The position numbers and the translations under genes were made by a program. This document shows, piece after piece, positions 14,340 to 64,000 of a stretch of 64,000 nt of DNA (positions are counted from its first letter, which is position 1; the number at the start of each line of letters is the position of its first letter). The stretch covers positions 2,542,001-2,606,000 of the forward strand of contig NZ_AP024845.1 in NCBI RefSeq assembly GCF_020892095.1, given 5' to 3'. This DNA is from Claveliimonas bilis. GTDB taxonomy: Bacteria > Bacillota > Clostridia > Lachnospirales > Lachnospiraceae. Under the pieces are notes generated by a model. It did not search any database, was not told where the DNA came from, and saw nothing but the letters and a program-made list of their open reading frames with translations.

Positions 14340-14897
14340 ATGTCATTACTGGAAGTGAAAAATGTAAAGAAAATATATACGACCCGCTTTGGAGGGAATC
14401 AGGTGGAAGCACTGAAAAATGTAAATTTTTCCGTGGAACCAAGAGAATATGTTGCGATCATGGGAGAATCCGGTTCCGGTAAGACCACACTTTTGAACAT
14501 TCTGGCTGCGTTGGATAAACCTACGTCAGGGAGAGTTTATCTGAAGGGAAACGATCTAAGTAAAGTAAAAGAAAAAGAAGTGGCAGCTTTCCGGCGTCAG
14601 AATCTGGGGTTTGTCTTTCAGGACTTTAATCTTCTGGATACGTTTTCTGTGCAGGATAATATCTTTTTGCCGCTGGTTCTTTCCGGCAAAAGCTATGAAG
14701 AAATGTCAGGGCGCCTTAAGCCCATTGCAGAAAAGCTGGGAATCAGCCAGATCCTTGGGAAATTTCCTTATGAGATCTCTGGCGGACAAAAGCAAAGGGC
14801 GGCGGTTGCAAGAGCTCTCATCACAAAACCGCAGCTGATCCTTGCAGATGAGCCGACCGGTACTGTACGGTTAGTACACAAAAGATTAAAAAAATGA
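14340..14897 (+). pseudogene. BceA-type ABC ATPase, 5' half cut by prophage
   Basis: Host codons run from ATG 14340 to about 14857; the frame then reads 13 or so phage-derived codons (TVRLVHKRLKK) to a TGA. The fragment holds Walker A GESGSGKT (residues 42-49), the Q-loop FVFQDFN, the signature SGGQ (147-150) and Walker B LILADE (166-171). It ends at EPTG, just before the D-loop. Switch/H-loop and C-terminus are at 54771-55022. Joining the halves restores ...EPTGALDS... in frame. The intact protein would energise the BceB-type permease at 55015. As it stands, the product should not be a working ATPase. Confidence 0.92.
14840..14877. other. attL (host/prophage left junction)
   Basis: Host sequence reads to CTTGCAGATGAGCCG, then the shared dinucleotide AC (14856-14857), then phage sequence CGGTACTGTACGGTTAGTA. 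With the right edge this rebuilds attP as two 19-base arms matching at 12 positions as an inverted repeat around AC. The host gene defines the position to within a base or two. Confidence 0.8.
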
Positions 14898-16265
14898 AAT
14901 GCCAGTGATATTCTGGCCATTATCAATGCGGATCTCTTTGATCACGCTTTTCCAGAGCGTCCGCTTTTCCTCCCGGGATAAAGTATCATAGATCTCCCGG
15001 AAGCCTTTGGAAACGACCTGGCGGACTCCGGACAGATCTATGCGCTTCTCATCCGGCGCCGGCGCCTGCAGCTTTTCCAGGGCGGCGGTATAGGTCTCAT
15101 AATCTTTCTTGTATTCCTCAATATCAATCAGATCATTCAGATACAGCTCTTTGAGCTTTGTGAGCTTGCGGCGCAGGGTGGAGCGGTCCACACTGGCAGC
15201 AGTCTTTTTCCGTTCAGCGGCCTGGACATCCCAGGACACCTCATACTTTTCAATCTCATCAGACAGATGCTCAAAAAGCCAGGTCTCAATCCGATCCTCC
15301 CGGGCGGAACGGTTATGGCAGCAGCGGCCTCTCTGAAAATGCTGGTTACAGCGGTAATAGAAAAAATCCCGTGTCTGATATCCAACCAGATTATGCCGGC
15401 ACTCCTCGCAGACAAGGATCCCAGTGAAAATATATACCTTGCCGGATGGATTGCTCCGGGAGTTCCTGCTGGTCAGCTCCTGCACCCGGTCAAACTGCTC
15501 CTTGTTGATGGCAGCAGGGCAAAAGTTCGGATTATATCTCCCGTTCCGGTCATAGACGCCTATGGCCAGCTTATCATGGAGCATCCGCCGGAAAGTGGCG
15601 TCACACCAGTTTACACCATAGGTCTCACGGATATACCGGATCGTAGCACGCTGGGAAGTGCTCCGCTCATAATAATCAAAAGCATCCTGCATGATGGCGG
15701 CCTTTTCCGGGATCAGCTCCAGACGCTTCTCATCATTCACACGCAGCCAGAAAGGACAGTTCCCGGAGAGGACAGTGCCATGCTGCACCTTGCTGTCAAA
15801 TACAACGTCTATCCTCTCCCCGTCCAGATCTGCCTCATTCTGTGCAATGGAGAGCTTGATATTGATATACAGCCGCCCACTGGCGGTAGTAGTATCATAA
15901 CCCTCCCCGTCATCTATGGTTTTCCATTCACAGTGATGGGCCTCCAGGATTTCCATGACCTTATAGTAGTCCGGAACGGACCGAAACCAGCGATCCAGGC
16001 GGGTAAAAAGCAGCATATCAACCTCATCCCGCCGGACGGCATCCAGCATTTTCTGGAACTCAGTACGCTTGTGCAGCTTTTTCCTGGCCGTTTTTGCGGC
16101 ATCAATATAGACGCCGACAATAACCCAGCCACGTTCTTTTGCATAGGCCTCCAGGCGTTCCCTTTGAGACTCCAGGGAGAGGCCTTTTATTTTCTGCTCC
16201 TCTCCGGAGACACGGATATACAGCGCAACACGGATCAGTCTGTTCTCAATTTCTTTTTCTGACAT
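14886..16265 (-). CDS. large serine recombinase (prophage integrase)
   Basis: 459 residues from ATG 16265, which has a GGAGTG site; the longer ATG at 16334 has no ribosome site. Resolvase catalytic domain: S20 in ALYIRVSGEEQ, the arginine-bearing FTRLDRWFRS (about 87-96) and SLESQRERL. A recombinase domain follows (about 160-265), then a zinc ribbon (C286, C289, C306, C315/C316) and a C-terminal coiled coil. Integrases of this kind act on short, non-identical attB and attP sites with a 2-bp core, as seen here. The gene ends 29 bases inside attL and reads toward it, the usual place. Confidence 0.95.
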   Translation of the reverse strand: MSEKEIENRLIRVALYIRVSGEEQKIKGLSLESQRERLEAYAKERGWVIVGVYIDAAKTARKKLHKRTEFQKMLDAVRRDEVDMLLFTRLDRWFRSVPDYYKVMEILEAHHCEWKTIDDGEGYDTTTASGRLYINIKLSIAQNEADLDGERIDVVFDSKVQHGTVLSGNCPFWLRVNDEKRLELIPEKAAIMQDAFDYYERSTSQRATIRYIRETYGVNWCDATFRRMLHDKLAIGVYDRNGRYNPNFCPAAINKEQFDRVQELTSRNSRSNPSGKVYIFTGILVCEECRHNLVGYQTRDFFYYRCNQHFQRGRCCHNRSAREDRIETWLFEHLSDEIEKYEVSWDVQAAERKKTAASVDRSTLRRKLTKLKELYLNDLIDIEEYKKDYETYTAALEKLQAPAPDEKRIDLSGVRQVVSKGFREIYDTLSREEKRTLWKSVIKEIRIDNGQNITGISFF

Positions 16266-16297
16266 AATATCACTCCTGTAAAAAGGTATAAAAAATA

Positions 16298-16311
16298 CAC
16301 CTATACAGGTG
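16298..16311. promoter_or_regulatory. palindromic operator candidate upstream of the integrase
   Basis: CACCT-ATAC-AGGTG is a perfect 14-base palindrome 33 bases upstream of the integrase start, inside its presumed promoter region. A related TATCACCGGTATA lies at about 16362. The binding protein is unknown. Confidence 0.4.
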
Positions 16312-16424
16312 ATAAAAAAATGTGATATAATCAACTTGTTCGGGGTTGCTTATATCGGTATTATCACCGGTATAGTAATTCTCTGGCCGTCTCTGTTGGC
16401 GCAGGGGCGGCTTTTATTTTTAGC

Positions 16425-47555: not shown

Positions 47556-49244
47556 ATGGCTCAGGAAGTAGTAAACATTCCCCGGGAGAGCACTATGAGA
47601 CAGATGATGCTCTCACAGAAAATCAATGCGGAAGGTGCGGCGGACATTGCGTACAAGGAAAAGGTGGCGCTTGCCACCACGAAAGAGGAAGTGGACGCGC
47701 TCTTTGTGGAGTGGTGGAAATATCAGTACCATCCGGATCTCCACACTAAAGCGGAAATGTTGGAGCGGTGGTTCGGGAATGTGCTGGATGATGACCGGGT
47801 GCATGGAGTATCCTTCCCACTGTATGGCACCAGCACGTCTGCAGTCGGAGAGCTGACGGATGACAGCGTGGGGCTTACGGTCACGCCATCCACAGAGGAG
47901 GAAGCGGGGCAGGATGATTTTGCGAAACTGCCACAGTTCTGGTGCCTGGAGGTATCAGCGGAAAAGCTCACGGATGGATCCCATGAGATCTATTATATTG
48001 AGCACATTGACAGCATGAAAAAAGTCAGATCCGGAGAACATCTCACATGGGTGCTCCAGAAAAACACATGGACAAGAGAGTGGGATGAAGGAGGATACAG
48101 ATACCTCAAAATGCGCTGCCATCCGGCGCCGGGATATGAGCAGTGGCCGGATGGAGAGGATAAAAACGGAAATGTATATGCCTACATGGCACATCCGAAA
48201 TATCCGGCTGGAGAGCTGGATGGAGTCATCACATGCGGAACCGGGCTTGCGCCGCTGAACTGGACAAGCCATACAACTGGCGTATCAAAATGGAGAGCCA
48301 GAGGGGAACAGTACAGCGGAGCAAGCGGAAACCTGGTTAAATTCCTGCTCCGGATGATGTGGCTGAAATACGCACAAAAGGGAAACGCTGGGAAGATTAC
48401 GGGCTGCAATCAGTACAATTATCAGTATACCGCAGCGATCTCCGAGGTGGGAGTTGAGCGTGTGATCCTTACGAAAGCCCAGGCAGCCAACCTTTTCGTG
48501 GGTTCGTCTGTTCAGATCGGTATCCAGTCCGGAACTGACAGAAACACAGCGAGCAATTATTCTGTCTGCAGGAATAAGCTGATCACACGCATTGAGGACT
48601 TTGAGGTTGAGGATGATGAAACGGAATACTCAGCGGTATACGTGGACAATGGAGGGGAAACCTTTGACACGACAGCCGGATCCACGCTGATCAGTACAGA
48701 TCCATACTGGTCCGGATGGAATGACAATGTAAAGGGTACAGACGGAAGCAGATACAGCGCCACAAGCGGGAAAGAGCCTGGACTCCTCCAGAAAATTGAG
48801 TTTATGAATGGCGCCTATCTGATCGTATCGGATGAGCTTTGGCAGTGGTCCACGGACGACAATGGAGACTATAATTTTGAGTGCCATACCTGCCATGACC
48901 AGTCAAAGGTGGCGTCATCCATCACGGCGAACTACGAGAAGCAGGAAGACCTCACAATGGTTATTCCGGCTGGCACAGCTGCAGGCTGGAAATACATTGA
49001 GGATACCGCAATATCCAAAGATCCGGCAGTCCTCTGGCCTGCAGGTATCGGAGCCAGTGGCAGTGGCGTTGGGTGTAAGGCAGCCTTCTACTGCTACCCG
49101 GCCGCTTCCGGCGTCCGGGCTGCGTGGGTGTTCGGCTCCTTGGGCAACGGCGGCTCTGCCGGCCTGGCGTGTCGCTACTCGCCCAATGGCGTGTCGAACG
49201 CTTCCTGGCACGGCGCTCTGGGCGCACCTGGCCTGGCTGGGTAA
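47556..49244 (+). CDS. DGR target: diversified tail-tip receptor-binding protein
   Basis: 562 residues, AGGAGG site. Residues 1-75 are an attachment region; the rest is a large beta-rich body. The C-terminal 50 or so residues are the variable region (AAFYCYPAASGVRAAWVFGS... to GALGAPG), in the place and with the G/W-rich style of C-type-lectin-fold DGR targets. Compared with the template, 11 codons differ: N to Y (3), S (3), G, P, H, and T to S, T to P. Two cysteines are kept. It lies among tail genes, so it is probably the adhesin that recognises the host surface. Fold inferred, not proven. Confidence 0.88.
   Translation: MAQEVVNIPRESTMRQMMLSQKINAEGAADIAYKEKVALATTKEEVDALFVEWWKYQYHPDLHTKAEMLERWFGNVLDDDRVHGVSFPLYGTSTSAVGELTDDSVGLTVTPSTEEEAGQDDFAKLPQFWCLEVSAEKLTDGSHEIYYIEHIDSMKKVRSGEHLTWVLQKNTWTREWDEGGYRYLKMRCHPAPGYEQWPDGEDKNGNVYAYMAHPKYPAGELDGVITCGTGLAPLNWTSHTTGVSKWRARGEQYSGASGNLVKFLLRMMWLKYAQKGNAGKITGCNQYNYQYTAAISEVGVERVILTKAQAANLFVGSSVQIGIQSGTDRNTASNYSVCRNKLITRIEDFEVEDDETEYSAVYVDNGGETFDTTAGSTLISTDPYWSGWNDNVKGTDGSRYSATSGKEPGLLQKIEFMNGAYLIVSDELWQWSTDDNGDYNFECHTCHDQSKVASSITANYEKQEDLTMVIPAGTAAGWKYIEDTAISKDPAVLWPAGIGASGSGVGCKAAFYCYPAASGVRAAWVFGSLGNGGSAGLACRYSPNGVSNASWHGALGAPGLAG
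49079..49231 (+). repeat. DGR variable repeat (VR)
   Basis: About 152 bases at the 3' end of the target gene, aligned without gaps to the template repeat at an offset of 261. There are 16 mismatches, and all 16 are at template adenines (A to T 7, A to C 7, A to G 2). The adenine-poor stretches (for example 49090-49136) are identical. The 3' end, GGCGCTCTGGGCGCA, is the GC-rich part expected to act in homing initiation. Confidence 0.93.
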
Positions 49245-49316: not shown

Positions 49317-49339
49317 TGGGGTTGTATGGTGTTCCCAGA

Positions 49340-49492
49340 GGCAGCCTTCAACTGCAACCCGGCCGCTTCCGGCGTCCGGGCTGCGTGGGTGTTCGGCAAC
49401 TTGAACAACGGCGGCAATGCCGGCCTGGCGTGTCGCAACTCGAACAATGGCGTGACGAACGCTAACTGGAACGGCGCTCTGGGCGCAACTGG
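49340..49492 (+). repeat. DGR template repeat (TR) in non-coding RNA
   Basis: About 152 bases, begins GGCAGCCTTCAAC and ends GGCGCAACTGG. It has 28 adenines, nearly all in the first two positions of AAC/AAT codons when read in the VR phase, so mutation would hit amino-acid-changing positions. There is a long run without A (about 49358-49397). It is not part of the target gene and lacks its own ribosome site. Confidence 0.93.
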
Positions 49493-49629: not shown

Positions 49630-50889
49630 ATGAAGACATACTGCAAACCTGCAGATACAGACATAGAAAACGCAGATCAAAATATGCCTGCGGTTAAGAA
49701 GTGCTTTGATGGAAAGCTGAAAAGAAAAGACTTCCAGCGGGTCCTGATCAGAACCGGGAAGATCACAAAGCAGGAAATAGCCCAGGCAAGACTGGATCAT
49801 GACAAAACCAAAGTCAATGCGGCAATCCGGGCGGTATGCGAGAGACTGACACAGAGGATCCGGGACAGAGATCTGAGGCTGCCACCGATCCGGCAATTCA
49901 AACGGAGAGACGGACTGACCAATAAGATGCGGGATATATGCCAGGAGTCTCCGGATCAGCAGATCATGGAATATATGGCCGTGGAGGCTCTGATGCCAAT
50001 GTTCAAGGCGAAGCTCCTCAAACATCAGTACGGCAGTATTCCGACAAGAGGCCAGGTGGGCGGAAAGAGACAGATCGAAAGATTATTAAGGAGAAAGTAT
50101 CCGGGAAAAGTGGATGCCGTGAAGTGTGACGCAGAAAAGGCATATCCATCTATTACGGTGGAGTGCTCTATGAAGCTGCTCCGGCGGGATATCGGGAAAA
50201 ACAAAATACTGCAGTGGTTTTTAGGTGCTCTCATGGAGAATTATCCAGGAGGGCACCTTTGCATTGGAGGATATCTCCCAGCGTGGTTATTCAACTATGT
50301 GATGAGCTATGTACTCAGGTATCTCCTGAGTCTGGAGAACACAAGAAGAGGAGTGAAAACCAAAATGATCCAGGCGGTGGTGTGCTTTGCGGATGACTTC
50401 ACTATGTTTGGACATTTTTCACAGATCCGGAAAGCAATCCGGAAAGCGTCAAAATGGAGCAGATCCACCCTGGGGCTGAAAATCAAAAATGCGTGGCAGA
50501 TCTACCACCTGACTACGTTTGAGGCGGAAAAGGAGCAGAAGAAAAGGAGGGTGGAGGGAAGCAGAAAAAGGACCTGCGGTGTGGATATGATGGGCTTTGT
50601 CACATATAGGACCTACACGATTATCAGAGGGAGGATCTTCCGGCGGATCCGGAGGCAGATCCTACGTGCTGCAGAGGACCTGGAAAAACTGGGATATATA
50701 CCCTGGTGGAGAGCCTGCAAGCTGTCAGCATACAAAGGCTGGCTCAAACACAGCGATAGTGAGAAGTTCGCAAAGAAATATCATGTAAATGAAATATTCA
50801 GAAAGGCTGCGCAGAGCGTGTCTCTGCATGGCAGAAAGGAGCATATCAGAAATGAAAGAGCGTTACTTATTGAAGCCTGCAGAGGTTGA
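49630..50889 (+). CDS. DGR reverse transcriptase
   Basis: 419 residues; ATG 49630 after GAAAGGATGG. RT motifs in order: HQYGSIPTRGQVGGKRQIER (residues 132-151, fingers), VKCDAEKAYPSI (catalytic D167), CIGGYLPAWLFNYVMSYVLR (211-230), VVCFADDFTMF (catalytic D255-D256, FADD in place of YxDD) and LGLKIKNAW. A basic thumb region follows. No maturase, integrase or nuclease domain is present, as for DGR enzymes. It would copy the TR RNA with errors at adenines. It lies on the same strand, 137 bases after TR, and overlaps the next gene by 38 bases. Confidence 0.92.
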   Translation: MKTYCKPADTDIENADQNMPAVKKCFDGKLKRKDFQRVLIRTGKITKQEIAQARLDHDKTKVNAAIRAVCERLTQRIRDRDLRLPPIRQFKRRDGLTNKMRDICQESPDQQIMEYMAVEALMPMFKAKLLKHQYGSIPTRGQVGGKRQIERLLRRKYPGKVDAVKCDAEKAYPSITVECSMKLLRRDIGKNKILQWFLGALMENYPGGHLCIGGYLPAWLFNYVMSYVLRYLLSLENTRRGVKTKMIQAVVCFADDFTMFGHFSQIRKAIRKASKWSRSTLGLKIKNAWQIYHLTTFEAEKEQKKRRVEGSRKRTCGVDMMGFVTYRTYTIIRGRIFRRIRRQILRAAEDLEKLGYIPWWRACKLSAYKGWLKHSDSEKFAKKYHVNEIFRKAAQSVSLHGRKEHIRNERALLIEACRG

Positions 50890-54751: not shown

Positions 54752-54790
54752 TACTAATTTAACATAACCCACAGGAGCGCTGGATTCCAG
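54752..54790. other. attR (prophage/host right junction)
   Basis: Phage arm TACTAATTTAACATAACCC (54752-54770), core AC (54771-54772), then host AGGAGCGCTGGATTCC. Reading host-left plus AC plus host-right restores the ABC gene in frame (E-P-T-G-A-L-D-S). The phage arms share TACTAA/TTAGTA ends and an ACA/TGT core of symmetry with attL. Confidence 0.8.
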
Positions 54791-55022
54791 GGCATCGGAT
54801 GAACTTCTTAGGCTGTTTACTCAGATTAACAGGGATGGGCAGACGATTTTGATGGTGACTCACAGTGTCAAGGCAGCCAGTACAGCGGATCGGATTTTGT
54901 TTATTAAGGATGGGGAGGTATTTCATCAACTGTACAGAGGAAATCTGACCAACGAGCAGCTTTACCAGAAGATTTCTGATACACTGACTGTACTTGCCAC
55001 AGGAGGTGAGAGGAATGAATAG
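54771..55022 (+). pseudogene. BceA-type ABC ATPase, 3' half
   Basis: No start codon. The open frame from ACA 54771 reads TGALDSRASDELLRLF (D-loop), ILMVTHSVKAAS (switch H-loop), DRILFIKDGEVFHQLYRGNL and ends at TAG 55020-55022, overlapping the permease start. It completes the fragment at 14340. With the prophage in place it cannot be translated from its own start. Precise excision would rebuild a gene of 257 residues. Confidence 0.92.
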
Positions 55023-56961
55023 CAGAATTTATTCCAGACTGGCAGTCAGCAATATCAAGAACAACAGAAAAACCTATGTCCCGTTTATTTTCACATCCAT
55101 CCTTACGGTTATGATGTACTATATTATAGACGCCCTTGCAGGGAATGGCAGTATTGAGATTACAAATGTGATCACAGTGCTCCGGATGGGATGTGGCGTG
55201 ATGGTTGTATTTTCCGTGATCTTTTTGTTTTATACCAACAGTTTTCTCATCAAGCGCCGGAAAAAGGAGATTGCTGTTTACAATATCCTTGGAATGGGAA
55301 AAGGACATATCGGAAGGATGCTGACAGTAGAGACGCTCATAGTGGGAGGAACCAGTATTGCAGGCGGCATTGCCGGAGGAATGGCCTTTGGGAAGCTGAT
55401 GCATCTCCTTTTAATACGGATCATTCACTATGATGTGGGAATGGAGTTCCATATTTCTGTGCAGTCTGTATCTGATACGGTGATACTGTTTGCATTTATC
55501 TTTTTCCTGACATGGTTTTATAATCTGTTTCAGATCAGGCTGGCTAATCCCATTGAGCTTCTGCGGGGCGGAAGTGCAGGGGAAAAAGAGCCGAAGACAA
55601 AAGTGATTCTGGCTTTAGTCGGAGTTGTTACTATGGCAGCAGGATACTATCTTGCTGTGTCAACCAAGAACCCTCTTGAAGCGATCAATACATTTTTTGT
55701 GGCTGTAATTTTAGTCATTATCGGAACGTATGCACTGTTTTTGGCAGGAAGTATTGCTCTTTTGAAACTGCTTAGAAAGCGGAAAAAATTTTATTATAAG
55801 CCCAATCATTTTGTCTCTGTTTCCGGAATGATTTACCGAATGAAACAAAATGCCGTGGGGCTTGCCAATATTTGCATTTTAAGTACGATCGTGCTTGTGA
55901 TGATATCCAGCACAGTGAGTCTGTATGTAGGTATGGACGATGTGATGGCACATCAGTATCCCAATGATTATCAGATGACGCTCTATGAAGCAAGCCAGGA
56001 AAAGATAGACAAAGCGAATAAGCTTATTGAGGAAGAGCTTGACCGGGGAGGTCTTAAGAAGGAGGGAGAGACAGCCTGCCACTATGGAACAGCAGTTCTT
56101 ATCAGTCAAGGAGGAAACAAATTTACGACCAGCGAGAATGGGACTTATTCTCCCCGGGATCTTACAGAATTGTACGTGATTCCACAGGAAGATTATCAGA
56201 AACTGGAAAACACCTCCACCAGTCTGAAAGAAAATGAAGTGATCATCTATACTACAGCTGAGAATTACGGAAGAGATTCGATTCAGATCGACGGCCGGAA
56301 ATTTCAGGTAACAGAAGAGCTGGATGACTTTGTTCTGGAAGAGAAGAATCAGTCACGGGTTGCGCCGGGAATGTATATGATCGTGGCAAACGATGAAGTG
56401 GCAATGCAGCTGGATTCACTGAAAAGCGGTCTTCGGTATGACATAGATTTTGATATGACAGGCAGTGATGAAGAAAAGGCTGTGGTAGAGGAGAAGATTG
56501 CGGACAGGATCACAGAAGAACTTCCGGGTACTTATTTTACCAGCAGACAGGCAGGGACAGAAAGCTTTTTCGGCTTTTACGGATGTTTGTTCTTCATCGG
56601 TATGTATCTTGGATTCATGTTTTTAGTGGCGACAGTGCTGATCATCTACTACAAACAGATATCTGAAGGTCTGGATGACCGGGAACGGTATGTGATCATG
56701 CAGAAAGTAGGAATGGACAAAAGAGAAATACGCCGGGCGATCCGCAGTCAGATCCTGATTGTATTTTTCCTGCCTCTGCTGTTTTCCATCCTTCATATTA
56801 TGGTTGCCTTCAATGTGATAACAAAACTTCTGGGGATATTCGGACTTTTCAATACCGGGCTTTTCGTCCTGTGTACTGTGGTGACTGTGCTGATATTCGC
56901 GGCATTTTACATTATTGTATTCGCTATTACCGCAAGAGAATATTATAAGATTGTCAATTAA
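55015..56961 (+). CDS. BceB-type ABC transporter permease
   Basis: 648 residues from ATG 55015, with AGGAGGTGAGAGG; it overlaps the ATPase stop. FtsX-like permease with ten predicted membrane helices and one large extracellular domain (about residues 310-510) between helices 7 and 8, the BceB layout. These transporters free cell-wall targets from peptide antibiotics and serve as the sensor for their BceS kinase. The prophage now separates it from its promoter, operators and ATPase. Any expression must come from phage read-through or a promoter near attR. Confidence 0.92.
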   Translation: MNSRIYSRLAVSNIKNNRKTYVPFIFTSILTVMMYYIIDALAGNGSIEITNVITVLRMGCGVMVVFSVIFLFYTNSFLIKRRKKEIAVYNILGMGKGHIGRMLTVETLIVGGTSIAGGIAGGMAFGKLMHLLLIRIIHYDVGMEFHISVQSVSDTVILFAFIFFLTWFYNLFQIRLANPIELLRGGSAGEKEPKTKVILALVGVVTMAAGYYLAVSTKNPLEAINTFFVAVILVIIGTYALFLAGSIALLKLLRKRKKFYYKPNHFVSVSGMIYRMKQNAVGLANICILSTIVLVMISSTVSLYVGMDDVMAHQYPNDYQMTLYEASQEKIDKANKLIEEELDRGGLKKEGETACHYGTAVLISQGGNKFTTSENGTYSPRDLTELYVIPQEDYQKLENTSTSLKENEVIIYTTAENYGRDSIQIDGRKFQVTEELDDFVLEEKNQSRVAPGMYMIVANDEVAMQLDSLKSGLRYDIDFDMTGSDEEKAVVEEKIADRITEELPGTYFTSRQAGTESFFGFYGCLFFIGMYLGFMFLVATVLIIYYKQISEGLDDRERYVIMQKVGMDKREIRRAIRSQILIVFFLPLLFSILHIMVAFNVITKLLGIFGLFNTGLFVLCTVVTVLIFAAFYIIVFAITAREYYKIVN

Positions 56962-57020
56962 TGTCCGGGTGTGGTAAAATAAGGACAGGGTATTTTGCAA
57001 AAATACACACCACTTGTGTT

Positions 57021-57063
57021 AATTTGGGACGTAACACTTTTTAAAAGTGTTACGTCCCAAATT
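57021..57063. repeat. 43-base perfect palindrome
   Basis: Two 21-base arms around a single T, beginning AATTTGGGACGTAACAC. It lies between the permease and the cupin gene, and ends 6 bases before the cupin ribosome site. It may be a terminator (weak T run), a large operator or a mobile palindromic repeat. Confidence 0.9.
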
Positions 57064-57085
57064 GAAAAAAAGGAGGACATGAATC

Positions 57086-57430
57086 ATGACAAAAGCAAAC
57101 GAAAGAGAAGTTGTTACTGTGGAGCGTGCCAACGGCGGTGCCGGTTTCATTATGAAGGAAGGGCTGCTGAATGAGGAGCAGCTGGGCGAGCACTGCCGTA
57201 TGTTCAGCCGTGTAACACTGAAACCGGGCTGCGAACTTGGACATCATGAGCATCACGGTGAGACAGAAACTTACTATGTGTTAAGTGGAAAAGGCATGTA
57301 CGATGACAACGGAAAGGCTGTTCCGATTGAAGCCGGAGATGTAACATTCTGCAAGGACGGCGACGGACACGGAGTAAAGAATAACGGCGATGAAGATCTG
57401 GTATTTGTAGCCCTGATCCTGAAAAAATAG
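57086..57430 (+). CDS. small cupin-domain protein
   Basis: 114 residues, AAAGGAGG site before ATG 57086. Single cupin_2 barrel: metal motif 1 GHHEHHGETETYYVLSGKG (two His pairs and Glu) and motif 2 GDVTFCKDGDGHGVKN. Such stand-alone cupins bind a metal and often a small ligand; substrate unknown. It is monocistronic, between a palindrome and a strong terminator. Confidence 0.9.
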   Translation: MTKANEREVVTVERANGGAGFIMKEGLLNEEQLGEHCRMFSRVTLKPGCELGHHEHHGETETYYVLSGKGMYDDNGKAVPIEAGDVTFCKDGDGHGVKNNGDEDLVFVALILKK

Positions 57431-57450
57431 CAGTAGAGAATAGAAAGAAA

Positions 57451-57512
57451 AAGCAGGCAATGTTATCAGAATATGTCAGTTAACAATTCTGATAACATTG
57501 CCTGCTTTTTGT
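57451..57512. terminator. strong bidirectional terminator
   Basis: A 22-bp perfect stem (57451-57472 with 57486-57507) and T runs on the plus strand, with A-rich sequence upstream that gives a T run on the other strand. It serves the cupin gene and the convergent chimeric ORF. Confidence 0.9.
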
Positions 57513-57537
57513 TATACGTCTGAAAGCGCACATTGCT

Positions 57538-58767
57538 TTATTCTTCACTGCCGCCTAATAGATTGTTCAGAATGCCGGAGCTTACCAGATATACAAGATC
57601 AGAGTCCTGTACCTGCACGTAGCGGGTGTCGTCGTCTGTAGTATTTCCGATATACAGCGTAAAGGTCAGAGGATCCTCATCAGATTCTTCTTCAGAAGAT
57701 TCATTGTAAGTCAGTTTCACTGTGATTCTGGAATCTTCATCCAGGCCAAAGGAAGCCAGCTCCTCGGCATCGGCATGATAGCTTGCAAGCTCCGTCAGAC
57801 TCATGGCGCCGTATCCGCCGGCAATGGTAGAGATAGTTTCCGTCTGTTCGTCATTGTCAGATGAGTAGATTGTTGTTGTCCCGTTTTCGGTAATATCAGC
57901 CTGTACAGGGTTTCCGCTTCCGATAGAGGGGACATCATCTTTTGCAACCATGGTATCAAGGTCATACTGCATGGATGATACAATGGAGGAGTCTGCCGTA
58001 TAAAGAATATCTTCCTGCCCGTTTACAGCAAGGTAGTAGTCTTCATCTACAGAATTGCCGATGGTAACAGTTGTAAGAGTTCCGTCCTGATCTGTTAGTT
58101 CGATGGTATAGGCAGGATCTTCAAGCCCGTAGTCAGAGAGGGCATCAGGATCAGAAATTTCCCGGGTGGCGGTAAGAGAACAGAAGGTATCTTCCATGGT
58201 TTCGATATAACTCTGCGTCAGAGGGATATCTCTGTCATTGGAGACATACCAGGTATCTCCGTCTTTTGCAAAGCTCATGGTGGTTCCCTCGCTGTGGTCT
58301 GTATAGGAAAGAGCTAAGAGGGATTCTATGTCTGTGACAGATATTTGAGAGTCATCCCCGCCGGTTTGTTCTTCCTGTTTCCTTCGGTTTCTGACAGAAC
58401 CAAGCTTTACAAGACGGATGATCTTCTCAAGCTGCTCTTCCTGAAACGTTTTGCCAAGCTGCTTCAGACAGAAAACAAATTTCAGATATTCCAGAACGGT
58501 CATATCCATATAGAGGGGCGGCTGTTCCGGCAGATAACCGATATCCTTTTTGGCTTTGTAAGGCTCTGTGAGAATATTGTGGCCATTAATGAGAACTTCT
58601 CCTTCCGTTGCTCCCAGATAACCGGTCATGATATTCATAGTTGTTGATTTTCCGGCGCCGTTTGGACCGAGAAAACCATAGATCTGCCCTTTTTTGATCG
58701 TAAAATTCAGATGATCCACGGCGGTATGTGATCCGTAGCATTTTACAAGATTTTTCACTTCGATCAA
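57538..58767 (-). pseudogene. chimeric ORF: ABC ATPase N-terminus fused to DUF4340 C-terminus
   Basis: About 409 residues from TTG 58767 (AGGAGG 8 bases before it). The first 130 residues are a GldA-type ABC ATPase start: IEVKNLVKCYG, Walker A GPNGAGKS and a Q-loop at YLPEQPPLYMDM. It breaks off before the signature and Walker B. From about residue 145 the sequence is a DUF4340 protein without its N-terminal membrane helix (DIESLLALSYTDHSEGTTMS; LTQSYIETMEDTFCSLTATR). In related genomes ATPase, permease, GldG-like and DUF4340 genes are neighbours, so an in-frame deletion of the genes between is the likely origin. It is unlikely to work as a transporter. Confidence 0.8.
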
Positions 58768-58806
58768 TGCACTACCTCCTCGCTTCAGAAAATTTTTCTT
58801 TTTCAT

Positions 58807-58965
58807 TTTAGAAACAGAATGTGTATAAAATGTGATGAAAGTCTGAAAAATTTTTGGGCATACAGGAAGAAAAGAAAAATGAATAAAATGGCAAAATTGC
58901 AGAAAGTAACTGTATGAATATTCAAAGAAAAAAGAAATTTTTATAAAAAAGTGAAAAAATATACC
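58807..58965. other. AT-rich intergenic region, upstream part
   Basis: This region separates the divergent chimeric ORF and symporter units. It is very A-rich and holds no ORF with a ribosome site. The promoter and small transcript that follow are listed separately. Nothing else was recognised. Confidence 0.6.
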
Positions 58966-58994
58966 TTGACAATACAGTCAGACAAGCATATAAT
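58966..58994 (+). promoter_or_regulatory. consensus sigma-A promoter
   Basis: TTGACA (58966-58971), 17-base spacer, TATAAT (58989-58994): a perfect consensus. A terminator follows within 65 bases, so the main product may be a short RNA. Confidence 0.9.
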
Positions 58995-59000
58995 ACAATC

Positions 59001-59058
59001 CATATTTGAAAAGATGCAGGCAAAGAGGTTGTTGGACTGATTTTCCTGCGTCTTTTTT
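59001..59058 (+). ncRNA. short transcript ending in a terminator (sRNA or attenuated leader)
   Basis: From the start point near 59001, AGATGCAGG (59012-59020) pairs with CCTGCGTCT (59045-59053), followed by six T. The loop holds AGAGGTTGTTGGACTGA. The RNA would be only about 55-60 bases, either a small RNA or a leader that limits the symporter 300 bases downstream. No known riboswitch recognised. Confidence 0.5.
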
Positions 59059-59353
59059 CATAAAAAGCCAAAATTATAGATATATTTTGGTAAAAATAAG
59101 TGCAATATAGCGGAAATGAGGTGTGAGACTAAATATTCAATAACTTGAAGAAAGAGAAACACAATTGCATGTTAAAGTTGTAACGATACTTGCTATTTTC
59201 AGAAAATTTTGGTAAAATAGAAAATAACAATACGGAAGAGAGGAATCAGAGAATGCTTTTCCGTGTACCGGTACGTTACAAAGTCAAAACAACAAGGCAA
59301 AAAGCAGCAGAAAACACAAAGGAATTTCAAAATGGAAGAGAAGGGGGCATTTT

Positions 59354-60751
59354 ATGTTTGAAACAATCAGTAATGCGATCTATGATATTGATGCTGTGAT
59401 TTGGGGCTGGTGGCTGATCATTCTGTTATTTGGTACCCATATTTTCATGACAATTCGTACTGGCTTTATCCAGAGAAAGACATTGAGCAAAGGAATTAAG
59501 CTTTCTGTAACCAGAGATCCGGATGCAGAAGGAGAGGTTTCCAACTTTGGAGCGCTTACAACAGCGCTTGCCGCTACCATCGGTACCGGTAATATTGTCG
59601 GTGTAGGTACTGCGATTGCTCTTGGCGGTCCGGGAGCTGTGCTTTGGTGCTGGCTTTCCGGTGTATTCGGAATTGCTACAAAGTATTCCGAATCTCTGAT
59701 CGCGGTAAAATACCGTGTAAAGACAAAAGACGGACGTATGCAGGGCGGTGCCATGTATGCACTTTCCAGAGGGTTAAAATGGAAAGGCCTTGGAAAAGTT
59801 CTTGGTATGATCTTTGCGATTTTCGCTGGATTTGCTTCTTTTGGTATCGGCTGTGCTACACAGGTAAACGCGATTGCCAATATCGTGGAAGAAAACGTTG
59901 GTGTTCCGGGATGGATCGTTGGTATTGTAATTGCTGTTCTTACTGCGATTGTTATTTTCGGCGGTATTAAGAGTATTGCAAGCGTGTGTGAGAAGCTGGT
60001 TCCATTTATGGCAATCTTTTATGTACTGGGATGTATTATTATTCTTGGATTCAATTATGACTATATTATTCCTGCAATCAAGACAATCTGTACACTGGCC
60101 TTTACTCCGGGAGCAGCGGCAGGCGGACTTGTAGGAACAGGTATTATGGCTGCAATGCGTTTTGGTATTGCGAGAGGTCTTTTCTCCAATGAATCTGGTA
60201 TGGGTTCTGCTCCTATCGCGGCGGCAGCAGCACAGACAAGAAATCCGGTTCGTCAGGCGCTGGTATCTTCCACAGGTACTTTCTGGGATACAGTAGTTGT
60301 ATGTCTGATGTCCGGTCTTGTAATCGTAACTTCTGTTATGAAGAATCCAAACATTAATGCGGATGAGATCGAGGACGGTGGAGTTTTAACTACATTAGCA
60401 TTCCAGCAGATTCCGTATCTTGGACCGATCATTCTGACACTCGGTATTATCTGTTTCGCATACTCAACAGTTCTTGGATGGGCATATTACGGAGAACGTG
60501 CAGTAGAATACTTTGCAGGTAAAAAAGTACTTATCGGATATCGTATCCTTTATGTTGCTGTAGCAGCAATCGCTCCGGTTGTCGCACTTGACGTTGTATG
60601 GGCACTGGCAGATATCCTGAATGCTTTGATGGCTGTACCTAACTTGATCGCAGTTCTTCTGTTGTCAAATGTCATTGCCAGTGAAACGAAGAAGTACATT
60701 AATGATCTGGATGCCTGGGATGAAACCCCTGTTCCGGTTATCGATGACTGA
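59354..60751 (+). CDS. alanine/glycine:cation symporter (AGCS family)
   Basis: 465 residues, GGGGGC/AAGAGAAGG-type site before ATG 59354. About eleven membrane helices. The family signatures are clear: GALTTALAATIGTGNIVGVG near residue 66, MQGGAMYAL, and GIARGLFSNESGMGSAPIAA near 270-290. It takes up alanine or glycine with Na+ (or H+). It is probably driven by the promoter at 58966 if the terminator at 59011-59058 is passed. The stretch 59059-59353 holds no other convincing gene. Confidence 0.95.
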   Translation: MFETISNAIYDIDAVIWGWWLIILLFGTHIFMTIRTGFIQRKTLSKGIKLSVTRDPDAEGEVSNFGALTTALAATIGTGNIVGVGTAIALGGPGAVLWCWLSGVFGIATKYSESLIAVKYRVKTKDGRMQGGAMYALSRGLKWKGLGKVLGMIFAIFAGFASFGIGCATQVNAIANIVEENVGVPGWIVGIVIAVLTAIVIFGGIKSIASVCEKLVPFMAIFYVLGCIIILGFNYDYIIPAIKTICTLAFTPGAAAGGLVGTGIMAAMRFGIARGLFSNESGMGSAPIAAAAAQTRNPVRQALVSSTGTFWDTVVVCLMSGLVIVTSVMKNPNINADEIEDGGVLTTLAFQQIPYLGPIILTLGIICFAYSTVLGWAYYGERAVEYFAGKKVLIGYRILYVAVAAIAPVVALDVVWALADILNALMAVPNLIAVLLLSNVIASETKKYINDLDAWDETPVPVIDD

Positions 60752-60777
60752 TAAAATAATTTTAAACGGAAAATGTC

Positions 60778-60806
60778 TTGACAAAATGATCTGAGAGAGG
60801 TAAAGT
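60778..60806 (+). promoter_or_regulatory. promoter of the T-box/trpXYZ unit
   Basis: TTGACA (60778-60783), 17-base spacer, TAAAGT (60801-60806); an overlapping TAATAT follows. It precedes the T-box leader. Confidence 0.65.
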
Positions 60807-60841
60807 AATATCCATCAGATACATATAAGCAAAACCGATGA

Positions 60842-61100
60842 GAAAGAGAAGTAGATTATCATTGTAAGGTGAAAGAGAGCGGCAGATGGTGGAAGTGCCG
60901 TACCGGACGGATAGTTGAATGGACTTTCGAGGGCGGCCTGAAAACCGGGAACGGTGAGTATGGTTTGTCGGGAACCGAACCCGTTATCAATCAGGAGTGT
61001 ATGTTAGTACATGAGAAAAGTGGACGCTTCGTCAATTTGAGTGGTACCGCGATAATAAAGTTTATTACCGCCTCAAACCTTTGGTTTGGGGCGGTTTTTT
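60842..61100 (+). promoter_or_regulatory. T-box riboswitch, UGG (Trp) specifier
   Basis: Stem I: GAAAG (60842-60846) pairs with CTTTC (60924-60928). The specifier loop has AGAAGTAG on the 5' side and GAATGGA on the 3' side, giving codon TGG at 60920-60922 followed by a purine. The T-box core TGAGTGGTACCGCG is at 61038-61051. Uncharged tRNA-Trp would favour the antiterminator over the terminator at 61067-61099. The tRNA-end bulge is TGGT, which pairs with A73 or wobbles with G73. It controls trpXYZ downstream. Confidence 0.9.
61067..61099 (+). terminator. T-box-controlled terminator
   Basis: ACCGCC-T-CAAACC, loop TTT, GGTTTG-G-GGCGGT, then six T. Its 5' arm overlaps the region that must pair with the T-box in the antiterminator. 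Confidence 0.88.
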
Positions 61101-61175
61101 ATTTGACAGGAAACCTCGTTCCCCATGAAATAAAACGCTTGGCGGGATGCGCATTTGCACGAAGAAGAAGTTCAT
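61097..61175. repeat. dispersed intergenic repeat, copy 2
   Basis: Same order as 1354-1432: TTTTATTT...AAATAAAA stem (here imperfect), then ACGCTTGGCGGGATGCGCAT and a GCACGAAGAAGAAG block. It begins inside the T run of the T-box terminator and ends about 60 bases before trpX. Confidence 0.7.
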
Positions 61176-61234
61176 TTCACGATTTTCTCTCCTAACAACA
61201 GCAAAGAATCAAAAAGGAAAAGGAGAACAAAACA

Positions 61235-62266
61235 ATGAAAAGAAGAACAGTAGCAGTATTATTAACAGCAGTAATGACGATGGCAATGACGGCAGGATGC
61301 GCAGGCAGCTCCGGATCATCTGATTCCGGAAGTGGAGAAGAGAGCTATACCATTGGTATTTCACAGTTTGCAGAGCACGGCTCTTTGGATAACTGCCGGG
61401 AAGGATTCTTACAGGGCTTGGAAGAGGAAGGAATCGTTGAAGGAGAAAATCTTACGGTGGACTACAAAAATGCAGCGGCAGATATGGGGACGGCAAGTCA
61501 GATATCCGATACTTTCGTTTCTGACAAGGTGGATATGATATGCGCCATTGCAACGCCTACTGCTCAGAGCGCATACAATGCAGCAATGGATACAGATATT
61601 CCGGTTATTTATACAGCAGTAACAGATCCGGTGGCGGCAGAACTTGCAGATGAAGAAGGAAATCCGGTAGGAAATGTGACAGGAACATCTGACGAACTGC
61701 CGATCAAAGCACAGCTTGAGATGATCCGGACTATGCTCCCTGATGCCCAGAAGATCGGCATCATGTATACTACAAGTGAGGCCAACTCTATTTCAGCGCT
61801 GGAAACATATAAAGAACTTGCAGGAGATTACGATTTTGAGATTGTGGAAAAAGGGATCACGGCAACAGCGGATATTTCTCTTGCGGCAGATGATTTATTA
61901 AGCCAGGTAGACTGCATTACAAATCTGACAGACAATACAGTGGTTGCGTCCCTGCCGACTATTCTGGAAAAGGCGAATGAAAAGGGAATCCCGATTTTCG
62001 GAAGCGAGATCGAGCAGGTAAAGATCGGCTGCCTTGCAGCAGAAGGATTGGATTATATTGCGCTTGGAAAGCAGACAGGACAGATGGCGGCAAAGGTGCT
62101 CAAAGGAGAGGCAGAGGCGTCAGAACTTCCTTATGAAACGATTACAGAGCCCGGATTTTACGTAAATACAAAGGTAGCGGAAAATCTTGGAATTACTGTA
62201 CCGGAGGAGCTGGCAGGAACAGCAGTAGAAAGCTTTGATACGATCTCTGAGGCAGAGGCGGAATAA
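61235..62266 (+). CDS. trpX: tryptophan ABC transporter, substrate-binding lipoprotein
   Basis: 343 residues, AAAAGGAGAAC site. Lipoprotein signal: MKRRTVAVLLTAVMTMAMTA then GCAGSS, lipid on the Cys at about 22, and a Gly/Ser linker. The body is the COG2984 (ABC_sub_bind) family: IGISQFAEHGSLDNCREGFL, ITNLTDNTVVASLPTILEKA, PIFGSEIEQVKIGCLAAEGL. It is the first gene of trpXYZ, and the UGG T-box in front supports tryptophan as substrate. It acts at the outer face of the membrane, delivering to TrpY. Confidence 0.9.
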   Translation: MKRRTVAVLLTAVMTMAMTAGCAGSSGSSDSGSGEESYTIGISQFAEHGSLDNCREGFLQGLEEEGIVEGENLTVDYKNAAADMGTASQISDTFVSDKVDMICAIATPTAQSAYNAAMDTDIPVIYTAVTDPVAAELADEEGNPVGNVTGTSDELPIKAQLEMIRTMLPDAQKIGIMYTTSEANSISALETYKELAGDYDFEIVEKGITATADISLAADDLLSQVDCITNLTDNTVVASLPTILEKANEKGIPIFGSEIEQVKIGCLAAEGLDYIALGKQTGQMAAKVLKGEAEASELPYETITEPGFYVNTKVAENLGITVPEELAGTAVESFDTISEAEAE

Positions 62267-62311
62267 AGAGACGTATCTGCAGAGGAAATAACAGAAGGTG
62301 AGGCATGATTC

Positions 62312-63211
62312 ATGGATTTTGTTGTAACTATTTTTGAGCAGGGGTTGATATATGGCATACTTGCTCTTGGGGTTTATATCACATACAAGATACTGGATTT
62401 TCCGGATCTTACGGTAGATGGAAGCTTTCCGCTTGGCGGAGCGGTGACCGCTCTTCTTATTATAAAGGGGATAAATCCTTATCTCTCTCTTTTAGCAGCC
62501 TTTCTGGCAGGAGCTTTGGCAGGGGTCTGCACCGGGCTGATCCATGTGAAGGGGAAAGTAAGAGATTTGTTATCGGGAATTATTATGATGACGGCTCTTT
62601 GGACTATCAATTTGTATATAGCGGGAACTTCCAATGTACCGTTGTTTTCCCAGGACAGTATCTTTAAAAATGACTGGATCCAGGGAATCATGCCGGAAGC
62701 CCTGCAAAGCTATATAACGCTGATCCTGGCTCTTGTTCTGGCAGCGATCAGCAAGATCCTTCTGGATCTTTATTTGAAAACAAAGTCCGGCTATCTTCTT
62801 CGGGCGGTGGGTGACAATGATGTGTTGGTAACTTCTCTGGCCAAGGATCAGGGCAATGTGAAAATCGTAGGCCTTGCCATCGCCAATGGCCTTGTAGCTC
62901 TGGCGGGAAGCGCATTCTGCCAGGAGGAGAGAGTGTTTGAGATTTCAATGGGAACCGGGGCGATCGTGATCGGATTGGCGAGTGTTATTATCGGAACAAG
63001 TATCTTTAAAAAGCTTACTGTTATGAAGGCTACTACAGCTGTTTTGATCGGCTCTGTCATATATAAAGCCTGTGTGGCTGTCGCTATCCGCAACTTTGAA
63101 CCACAGGCAATGAAATTGATCACAGCAGTTTTATTCCTGGTAATTTTGATTATCAGTATGGAAAGAAGAAAGAAGGTGAAACCGGATGCTGGAACTCAAA
63201 GACATTCATAA
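62312..63211 (+). CDS. trpY: tryptophan ABC transporter, permease
   Basis: 299 residues, AAGGTGAGG-type site upstream. Eight or so membrane helices of the COG4120 type, with the BPD_transp_2-like signature in the first half (YGILALGVYITYKILDFPDL; TVDGSFPLGGAVTALLIIKG) and VIIGTSIFKKLTVMKATTAV. It overlaps the ATPase gene by 26 bases. It is partner of TrpX and TrpZ in one transporter. Confidence 0.9.
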   Translation: MDFVVTIFEQGLIYGILALGVYITYKILDFPDLTVDGSFPLGGAVTALLIIKGINPYLSLLAAFLAGALAGVCTGLIHVKGKVRDLLSGIIMMTALWTINLYIAGTSNVPLFSQDSIFKNDWIQGIMPEALQSYITLILALVLAAISKILLDLYLKTKSGYLLRAVGDNDVLVTSLAKDQGNVKIVGLAIANGLVALAGSAFCQEERVFEISMGTGAIVIGLASVIIGTSIFKKLTVMKATTAVLIGSVIYKACVAVAIRNFEPQAMKLITAVLFLVILIISMERRKKVKPDAGTQRHS

Positions 63212-63959
63212 ATACTATAATCCCGGTACAGTCAATGAAATGTGTCTGTTCCACGGGTTTAACCTGTCCATAGAAGAAGGAGAATTTGTCTCCGTGATCG
63301 GGAGCAACGGTTCCGGAAAAACGTCTATGCTGAATATTATCTGCGGAAGCATTCCGGTAGAGGCCGGCCAGATTTTTATGAACGGCTCTGACATTACGAA
63401 AGAGAAAGAATACAAACGAAACCGAAGGATCGGAAGGGTGTATCAGAATCCGGCCATGGGGACCTGTCCTTCCATGACGATTCTGGAGAATATGGCATTG
63501 GCGGATAATAAAGGAAAGGTGTATGGATTCGGACGGGGGACCAATAAGGCGAGAATTTCCTATTATAAAGAACTTTTAAGCCAGCTGGGACTTGGTTTGG
63601 AGGATAAGCTGGATATTAAGGTGGGAGCGCTGTCCGGAGGCCAGAGACAGGCGATGGCTCTTTTGATGTCTACGATGACTCCTATAGAATTTCTTATTCT
63701 GGATGAACATACGGCGGCTCTGGATCCTAAGACGGCAGAGTTGATCATGGAGCTGACAGACAAAATCGTAAAAGAGAAGAAACTGACTACGATCATGGTA
63801 ACTCACAATCTCCGTTATGCGGTAGAGTATGGAGACCGTCTTTTGATGATGCATCAGGGCGAGGCTGTACTTGATCTGAAAGGTGAGGAAAAAAAGGCGA
63901 TGTCTGTAGATGAAATATTGAAGCAGTTTAACGAAATCAGCATAGAATGCGGCAACTAG
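63186..63959 (+). CDS. trpZ: tryptophan ABC transporter, ATP-binding protein
   Basis: 257 residues (COG1101 family). Walker A GSNGSGKT (about 38-45), Q-loop VYQNPAMGTC, signature LSGGQRQAMALLM, Walker B FLILDEHTAALDP and H-loop MVTHNLRYAVEYGD. The HTAALDP D-loop is typical of this family. The start lies in the 3' end of trpY, so both are translated together. It powers uptake. Confidence 0.92.
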   Translation: MLELKDIHKYYNPGTVNEMCLFHGFNLSIEEGEFVSVIGSNGSGKTSMLNIICGSIPVEAGQIFMNGSDITKEKEYKRNRRIGRVYQNPAMGTCPSMTILENMALADNKGKVYGFGRGTNKARISYYKELLSQLGLGLEDKLDIKVGALSGGQRQAMALLMSTMTPIEFLILDEHTAALDPKTAELIMELTDKIVKEKKLTTIMVTHNLRYAVEYGDRLLMMHQGEAVLDLKGEEKKAMSVDEILKQFNEISIECGN

Positions 63960-63975
63960 AGAATCATCCAAAATT

Positions 63976-64000
63976 AAGAACCCGTCAGGGTTCTTTTTTT
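63976..64000 (+). terminator. terminator of trpXYZ
   Basis: AAGAACCC-GTCA-GGGTTCTT with a T run reaching the window end. Confidence 0.88.

Follow-up and report, generated by a model that had tools for sequence, protein, structure and literature searches.

An in-frame fusion of ABC ATPase and DUF4340 genes in Claveliimonas bilis that is very probably a deletion scar

Does an open reading frame that joins half of an ABC transporter ATPase to a DUF4340 domain represent a new fusion gene, or the remains of two broken ones? One such frame lies in the window, the stretch of 64,000 nucleotides of C. bilis DNA analysed here (Table 1). A reading made from the sequence alone had called it a fusion scar, left when the end of the ATPase gene, a permease gene and a GldG-like gene were deleted. 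Comparison with intact alleles leads us to conclude, with little doubt, that the frame is a strain-specific chimeric pseudogene produced by one 3041-bp deletion.

Table 1. Coordinates of the chimeric frame and its parts in the window
Feature	Position	Strand	Description
Chimeric open frame	57538..58767	-	5' third of ABC ATPase gene joined to DUF4340 gene
Shine-Dalgarno AGGAGG	58775..58780	-	Ribosome-binding site of the former ATPase gene, intact; seven bases 5' of TTG 58767
ATPase remnant	58385..58767	-	Reduced to Walker A and the Q-loop region; no difference from the intact G061 allele
DUF4340 remnant	57538..58384	-	Membrane anchor lost with codons 1-29 and two bases of codon 30
Deletion junction	58384..58385	-	Site at which 3041 bp of G061 sequence are lacking; no bases common to both sides

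What the chimeric frame encodes

Both halves lie in a single minus-strand frame whose stop ends at 57538, as the sequence-only reading had described. The product would have 409 amino acids when translated from the TTG at 58767 and 422 from the mechanically assigned ATG at 58806. The TTG, which had been proposed earlier and is preceded by the AGGAGG of Table 1, is the preferred start.

In the fusion, the Pfam match to ABC_tran spans profile positions 2-104 of 137. The DUF4340 domain is present, recognized by Pfam at 5.2e-30 with a score of 105.4 bits (cut-off 25). The best NCBIfam match, GldA, covers positions 3-126 of 301 and, at 138.2 bits, stays below its cut-off of 402.6. The fusion and the intact allele were scanned for ABC motifs, for which we took LS.G..QR to be the signature and LSSH the H-loop. 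Walker A is kept in the fusion. The signature, Walker B and the H-loop are each absent from it, and all three are present in the intact ATPase of G061, a second genome labelled as the same species. The missing signature and Walker B agree with what had been noted before, and the H-loop extends the list; the fusion thus lacks the LSxG signature, Walker B and H-loop of a functional GldA/DrrA-type ABC ATPase. The absence of a membrane start from the DUF4340 part was likewise borne out. No 19-residue Kyte-Doolittle window exceeds 1.6 in the fusion, compared with 12 in the intact DUF4340 protein, and the anchor codons are deleted relative to G061. The fusion therefore has the DUF4340 domain without the N-terminal membrane segment found in the functional DUF4340 protein of the operon.

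In the AlphaFold model of the intact DUF4340 protein (mean pLDDT 90.0), a helix at residues 4-36 is followed by a beta-rich domain. From this helix, the anchor would normally place the DUF4340 domain outside the membrane. The model had no Foldseek match in the PDB at E <= 0.001. In a second look, the highest Z was 7.0, to 4q0y (a thioesterase-like protein of Clostridium sporogenes), followed by 6.5 to 4r7r (a putative C. perfringens lipoprotein), and Z values below 8 may reflect merely a common arrangement. By sequence, the ATPase matched many ABC ATPases of solved structure, ABCA-type proteins being the best, and the GldG-like protein matched no solved structure at E <= 0.01.

The intact allele and the deletion

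The G061 genome, a single 3.11-Mb contig recovered in the genus-level search, is the one other strain on which the within-species comparison is based. It carries the counterparts of both halves of the fusion about 3 kb apart, residues 1-142 at 99% identity and residues 140-422 at 98%, and the adjacency of the halves in the window is therefore no chance coincidence. The G061 genes form an operon that encodes an ATPase (369 aa), an ABC-2 permease (289), a GldG-like protein (460) and a DUF4340 protein (311), with Pfam matches to ABC_tran, ABC2_membrane_2/5, ABC_transp_aux with DUF7088, and DUF4340, respectively. Operons of this composition, a GldA/DrrA-type ATPase with an ABC-2 permease, a GldG-like ABC_transp_aux/DUF7088 protein and a DUF4340 protein, occur in Lachnospiraceae and other Clostridia. 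The window remnants are pieces of the first and last genes of such an operon in their original place and orientation. Compared with it, the window lacks the catalytic half of the ATPase and the DUF4340 anchor, and nothing in it matches the permease or the GldG-like protein.

The two strains align at 99.66% over window positions 58385-64000 and at 99.24% over 57067-58384, with 3041 bp of G061 in between, so that a close relative retains the complete operon and the window is collinear with it save for this one piece. The same four genes are intact, in a matching neighbourhood, in Lachnoclostridium sp. An118 (G005) and in G006, which identifies the intact operon as ancestral and the window as the deleted state. 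Since G061, G005 and G006 are all intact, the deletion should not predate the divergence of the two strains, barring recombination. The missing DNA runs from the last base of ATPase codon 141 to the end of that gene, through the whole of the ABC-2 permease and GldG-like genes, and into the anchor-coding start of the DUF4340 gene. The loss of the ATPase end and of the permease and GldG-like genes is exactly as had been predicted.

The junction falls between 58370 and 58400, where it had been expected, whereas the short repeats anticipated there were not found: 0 bp are shared on either side in the G061 sequences. A search for direct repeats within 25 bp on each side returned a longest common word of 7 bases, a length that 291 of 2000 pairs of places drawn at random from the G061 stretch reach or exceed, and this candidate was rejected. 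One or two bases of microhomology may have been erased at the junction by later mutation. We infer that the break arose by homology-independent rejoining. Ku was not detected in any of three genomes (the window strain's own, G061 and G005), in a search whose control was positive in one of 14 control genomes, Bacillus subtilis.

That the deletion is known from one genome assembly raises the alternative that the strain still has the 3 kb, which were dropped in assembly. The window genome, however, is a single contig and 99.94% complete, and a junction with no shared bases and a 7-base common word at chance level is unlike a collapsed repeat. We consider such an artefact very improbable.

The starts of the ATPase and DUF4340 genes lie 3374 bp apart in G061, a frame offset of 2, and 3041 modulo 3 is also 2, so that the deletion brings the two genes into register. 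As coding sequence lies on both sides, roughly one in three random junctions would stay open, and the open frame requires no selection.

A new gene or a recent pseudogene

Chimeric pseudogenes formed by internal deletion are an ordinary form of bacterial gene decay. The frame resembles them in having arisen from a single deletion, in being composed of two truncated genes, in having an intact allele in a sister strain and in showing little further mutation; it differs only in that its junction is in frame by chance. In the proposed course of events, one 3041-bp deletion would have joined the broken ATPase and DUF4340 genes through homology-independent rejoining, and the frame would have stayed open by chance. 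The old ribosome-binding site could still start translation and, given the open frame and the intact start region, the fusion protein may be made. Its product would be cytosolic and incapable of ATP hydrolysis, and its DUF4340 domain would lie in the wrong compartment. Because ATP hydrolysis would be lost, the domain misplaced and the membrane partners gone, the fusion is most likely non-functional. The four-component transporter has, most likely, been lost from the window strain, and the fusion protein most likely does nothing.

No replacement was found in the strain's own genome. Searches with the G005 permease and GldG-like protein gave no match at E <= 0.01, in runs without an internal positive control, and there is no second DUF4340 locus outside the fusion frame. 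The ATPase itself has paralogues in the genome. No intact copy of the lost genes was seen elsewhere, a result that for the permease and GldG-like protein comes from searches without a positive control, and essential parts of both joined genes are missing by the motif, membrane-segment and Pfam results.

The frame could instead encode a new gene, in which an N-terminal part that binds ATP without hydrolysing it carries a cytosolic DUF4340 domain in a selected role. The open frame, the intact start and ribosome-binding site, and the retention of Walker A and the DUF4340 domain would all fit such a role. Set against it is the distribution of the fusion, which is found in the window strain only, while G061 and sister species keep separate genes. 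The DUF4340 remnant also carries Leu189Pro, one of three amino-acid changes, at a position where all 38 aligned intact homologues (G061 and 37 loci out of the 76 that gave a DUF4340 match) have L, I, V or F. Finally, the fusion was modelled by AlphaFold with a mean pLDDT of 49.5, far below that of the intact DUF4340 protein, a contrast to which we give little weight because the two models were built on alignments of different make-up. A selected new gene thus has hardly any claim to credence.

Relative to G061 there are no mismatches in the ATPase remnant and its upstream DNA over 58385-59353 (969 bp), with 0 of 422 bp changed within the frame, and 7 substitutions in the 847 bp of the DUF4340 remnant (4 synonymous and 3 nonsynonymous codons). 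The deletion appears young, since the remnant is nearly unmutated. Changed codons amount to 2.5 per 100 in the DUF4340 remnant, and eight intact neighbour genes span 0.7 to 6.4. Nonsynonymous changes make up 3 of 7 changed codons in the remnant and 16 of 84 in the eight neighbours, where 68 are synonymous; the larger share in the remnant is not significant (Fisher p = 0.16). When polarised by G005 and G006, Leu189Pro and the synonymous change at Gly222 are derived in the window, Asn197 is derived in G061, and four changes are unpolarised. A derived proline at position 189 fits a loss of constraint on the DUF4340 remnant. The sequence-only reading had offered either a recent event or a new use for the open frame. 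The small number of substitutions favours the first of these, and the second finds no support, as about one junction in three would be open by chance.

Conservation of the same fusion across species, which would have spoken against a scar, did not turn up in any of the sets searched. None of the 10 further genomes in the genus set has the fusion, and it is hence absent from any second lineage there. Among the 11 genomes of that set the operon is intact in six (G061, G003, G004, G005, G006 and G008) and broken in two (G000 and G009), and the remaining three have no ATPase-DUF4340 pair (G001, which is 82% complete, G002 and G007). At family level, the ATPase N-terminus was matched at E <= 1e-36 in 214 of 397 genomes. 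Among the 150 ATPase matches listed, one frame is shorter than 316 aa, that of G364 (190 aa), which was rejected as a second fusion or truncation as it is cut by a contig end. Of the long frames (475 aa in G412, 400-441 aa in the others), that of G412 was opened; its operon proved to be intact, and the ATPase has a long tail. A long frame alone is no proof of an intact ATPase. Among viral contigs 33 stretches matched a pattern and none encodes a relative, and among 5000 plasmid records listed none covers 80% of the query.

Fate of the operon in other genomes and the surroundings of the fusion

All four operon genes are present in 68 of 80 loci, the best 80 of 195 relatives in named genomes, when near-complete ATPase and GldG profiles, a permease of at least 230 aa and a DUF4340 profile matched from its start are demanded. 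The DUF4340 C-terminus lies outside this definition, and a locus with a shortened DUF4340 (L057) counts as complete. Of the 12 remaining loci, those of C. monacensis (L039) and a Mediterraneibacter MAG (L062) are broken, and in L104 the ATPase is truncated and unrelated genes come after it. One (L055) reaches the end of its DNA with the permease and GldG frames open, and six (L074, L077, L094, L098, L103 and L113) apparently extend to the limit of the retrieved sequence, as judged by length. In the last two (L080 and L084), the ATPase, permease and GldG-like genes are intact with no DUF4340 match downstream; L084 has a gene that we take, from its sequence, to be DegV-like.

Compared with An118 (96.3% identical DNA), C. 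monacensis DSM 108991 (L034/L039) has three separate lesions in the operon: the ATPase gene has lost 119 bp, the GldG-like gene has gained 4 bp, and the DUF4340 gene has lost 269 bp between 9-bp repeats, copies of GAAAACACC. The locus of Candidatus Mediterraneibacter stercoripullorum (L062:4063-5261), judged against other species, has two deletions. The first, apparently between CTGATC repeats, removed the ATPase signature and Walker B, and the second extends from the ATPase end into the DUF4340 gene and includes the permease and GldG-like genes. In both organisms the operon was inactivated by deletions, as in the window, with lesions that are other than the one found there. Judged from these alleles, loss of the operon is recurrent and took place independently, via different lesions, in the window strain, C. 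monacensis and L062. One explanation would be intermittent selection for transporter loss in Claveliimonas and Mediterraneibacter, for instance by a phage or a toxic substrate that uses the transporter. This seems unlikely to us; if true, the transporter would have been knocked out repeatedly, in the window strain, C. monacensis, L062 and possibly L104, and the in-frame fusion would be one snapshot of that process.

The ATPase breaks of the window (codon 141), L062 (edge at RLIR) and L104 (L104:325-768, homology ending at RNRLIRNL) all fall within about six codons, which may be coincidence. We claim no breakpoint hot spot, because the break in L062 can be explained by repeats and L104, from a MAG, lies close to the end of its contig.

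The frame offers a clean example of a deletion scar that resembles a new fusion gene, and a warning for automatic domain-fusion annotation. Furthermore, the transporter is dispensable in some Claveliimonas, and a natural null and an intact strain of one species are available for tests of its function. Among the literature matches listed, we found no functional study of the four-gene operon in Clostridia. The deoxycholate producer c-25 presumably belongs to C. bilis. Claveliimonas is mentioned in PMC11984160 (in the reference list) and PMC13416699, and strain c-25 in PMC8623032. In a section on gene essentiality in Verrucomicrobium spinosum, a DUF4340-domain protein is described as holding an essential domain (PMC12283558), and PMC8088628 also mentions DUF4340.

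Several differences from G061 lie near the fusion, in a neighbourhood where the names AGCS symporter, cupin, BceA-like, BceB-like, CPBP and histidine kinase are our own assignments, made from sequence. A prophage of about 39.9 kb occupies window positions 14860-54766, with a serine-type integrase at 14886-16334 on the minus strand (phrog_95, also the DNA invertase phrog_125). It is inserted at the Walker B motif (LADEPTG) of a BceA-like ABC ATPase gene, and the empty site in G061 is an intact gene of 255 aa. The longest common word within 120-130 bp around both prophage ends is 7 bases. Within the prophage, a template repeat resembles the end of the gene at 47556-49244 (49078-49197 and 49339-49458), with all 12 mismatches over 120 aligned bases at template adenines, and the template precedes a reverse transcriptase gene (phrog_1423) at 49630-50889. 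We take this set to be a diversity-generating retroelement.

The BceB-like gene beside the prophage (54766-56988) is 97.75% identical to G061, compared with 99.66% for the DNA beyond the deletion. Between this gene and the cupin gene, about 78 bp (56989-57066) are inserted compared with G061 and hold the palindrome AATTTGGGACGTAACACTTTTTAAAAGTGTTACGTCCCAAATT. With up to 3 mismatches the palindrome occurs at 12 genomic sites, counting this one, and its reversed control at none; by sequence it looks like a small mobile palindrome.
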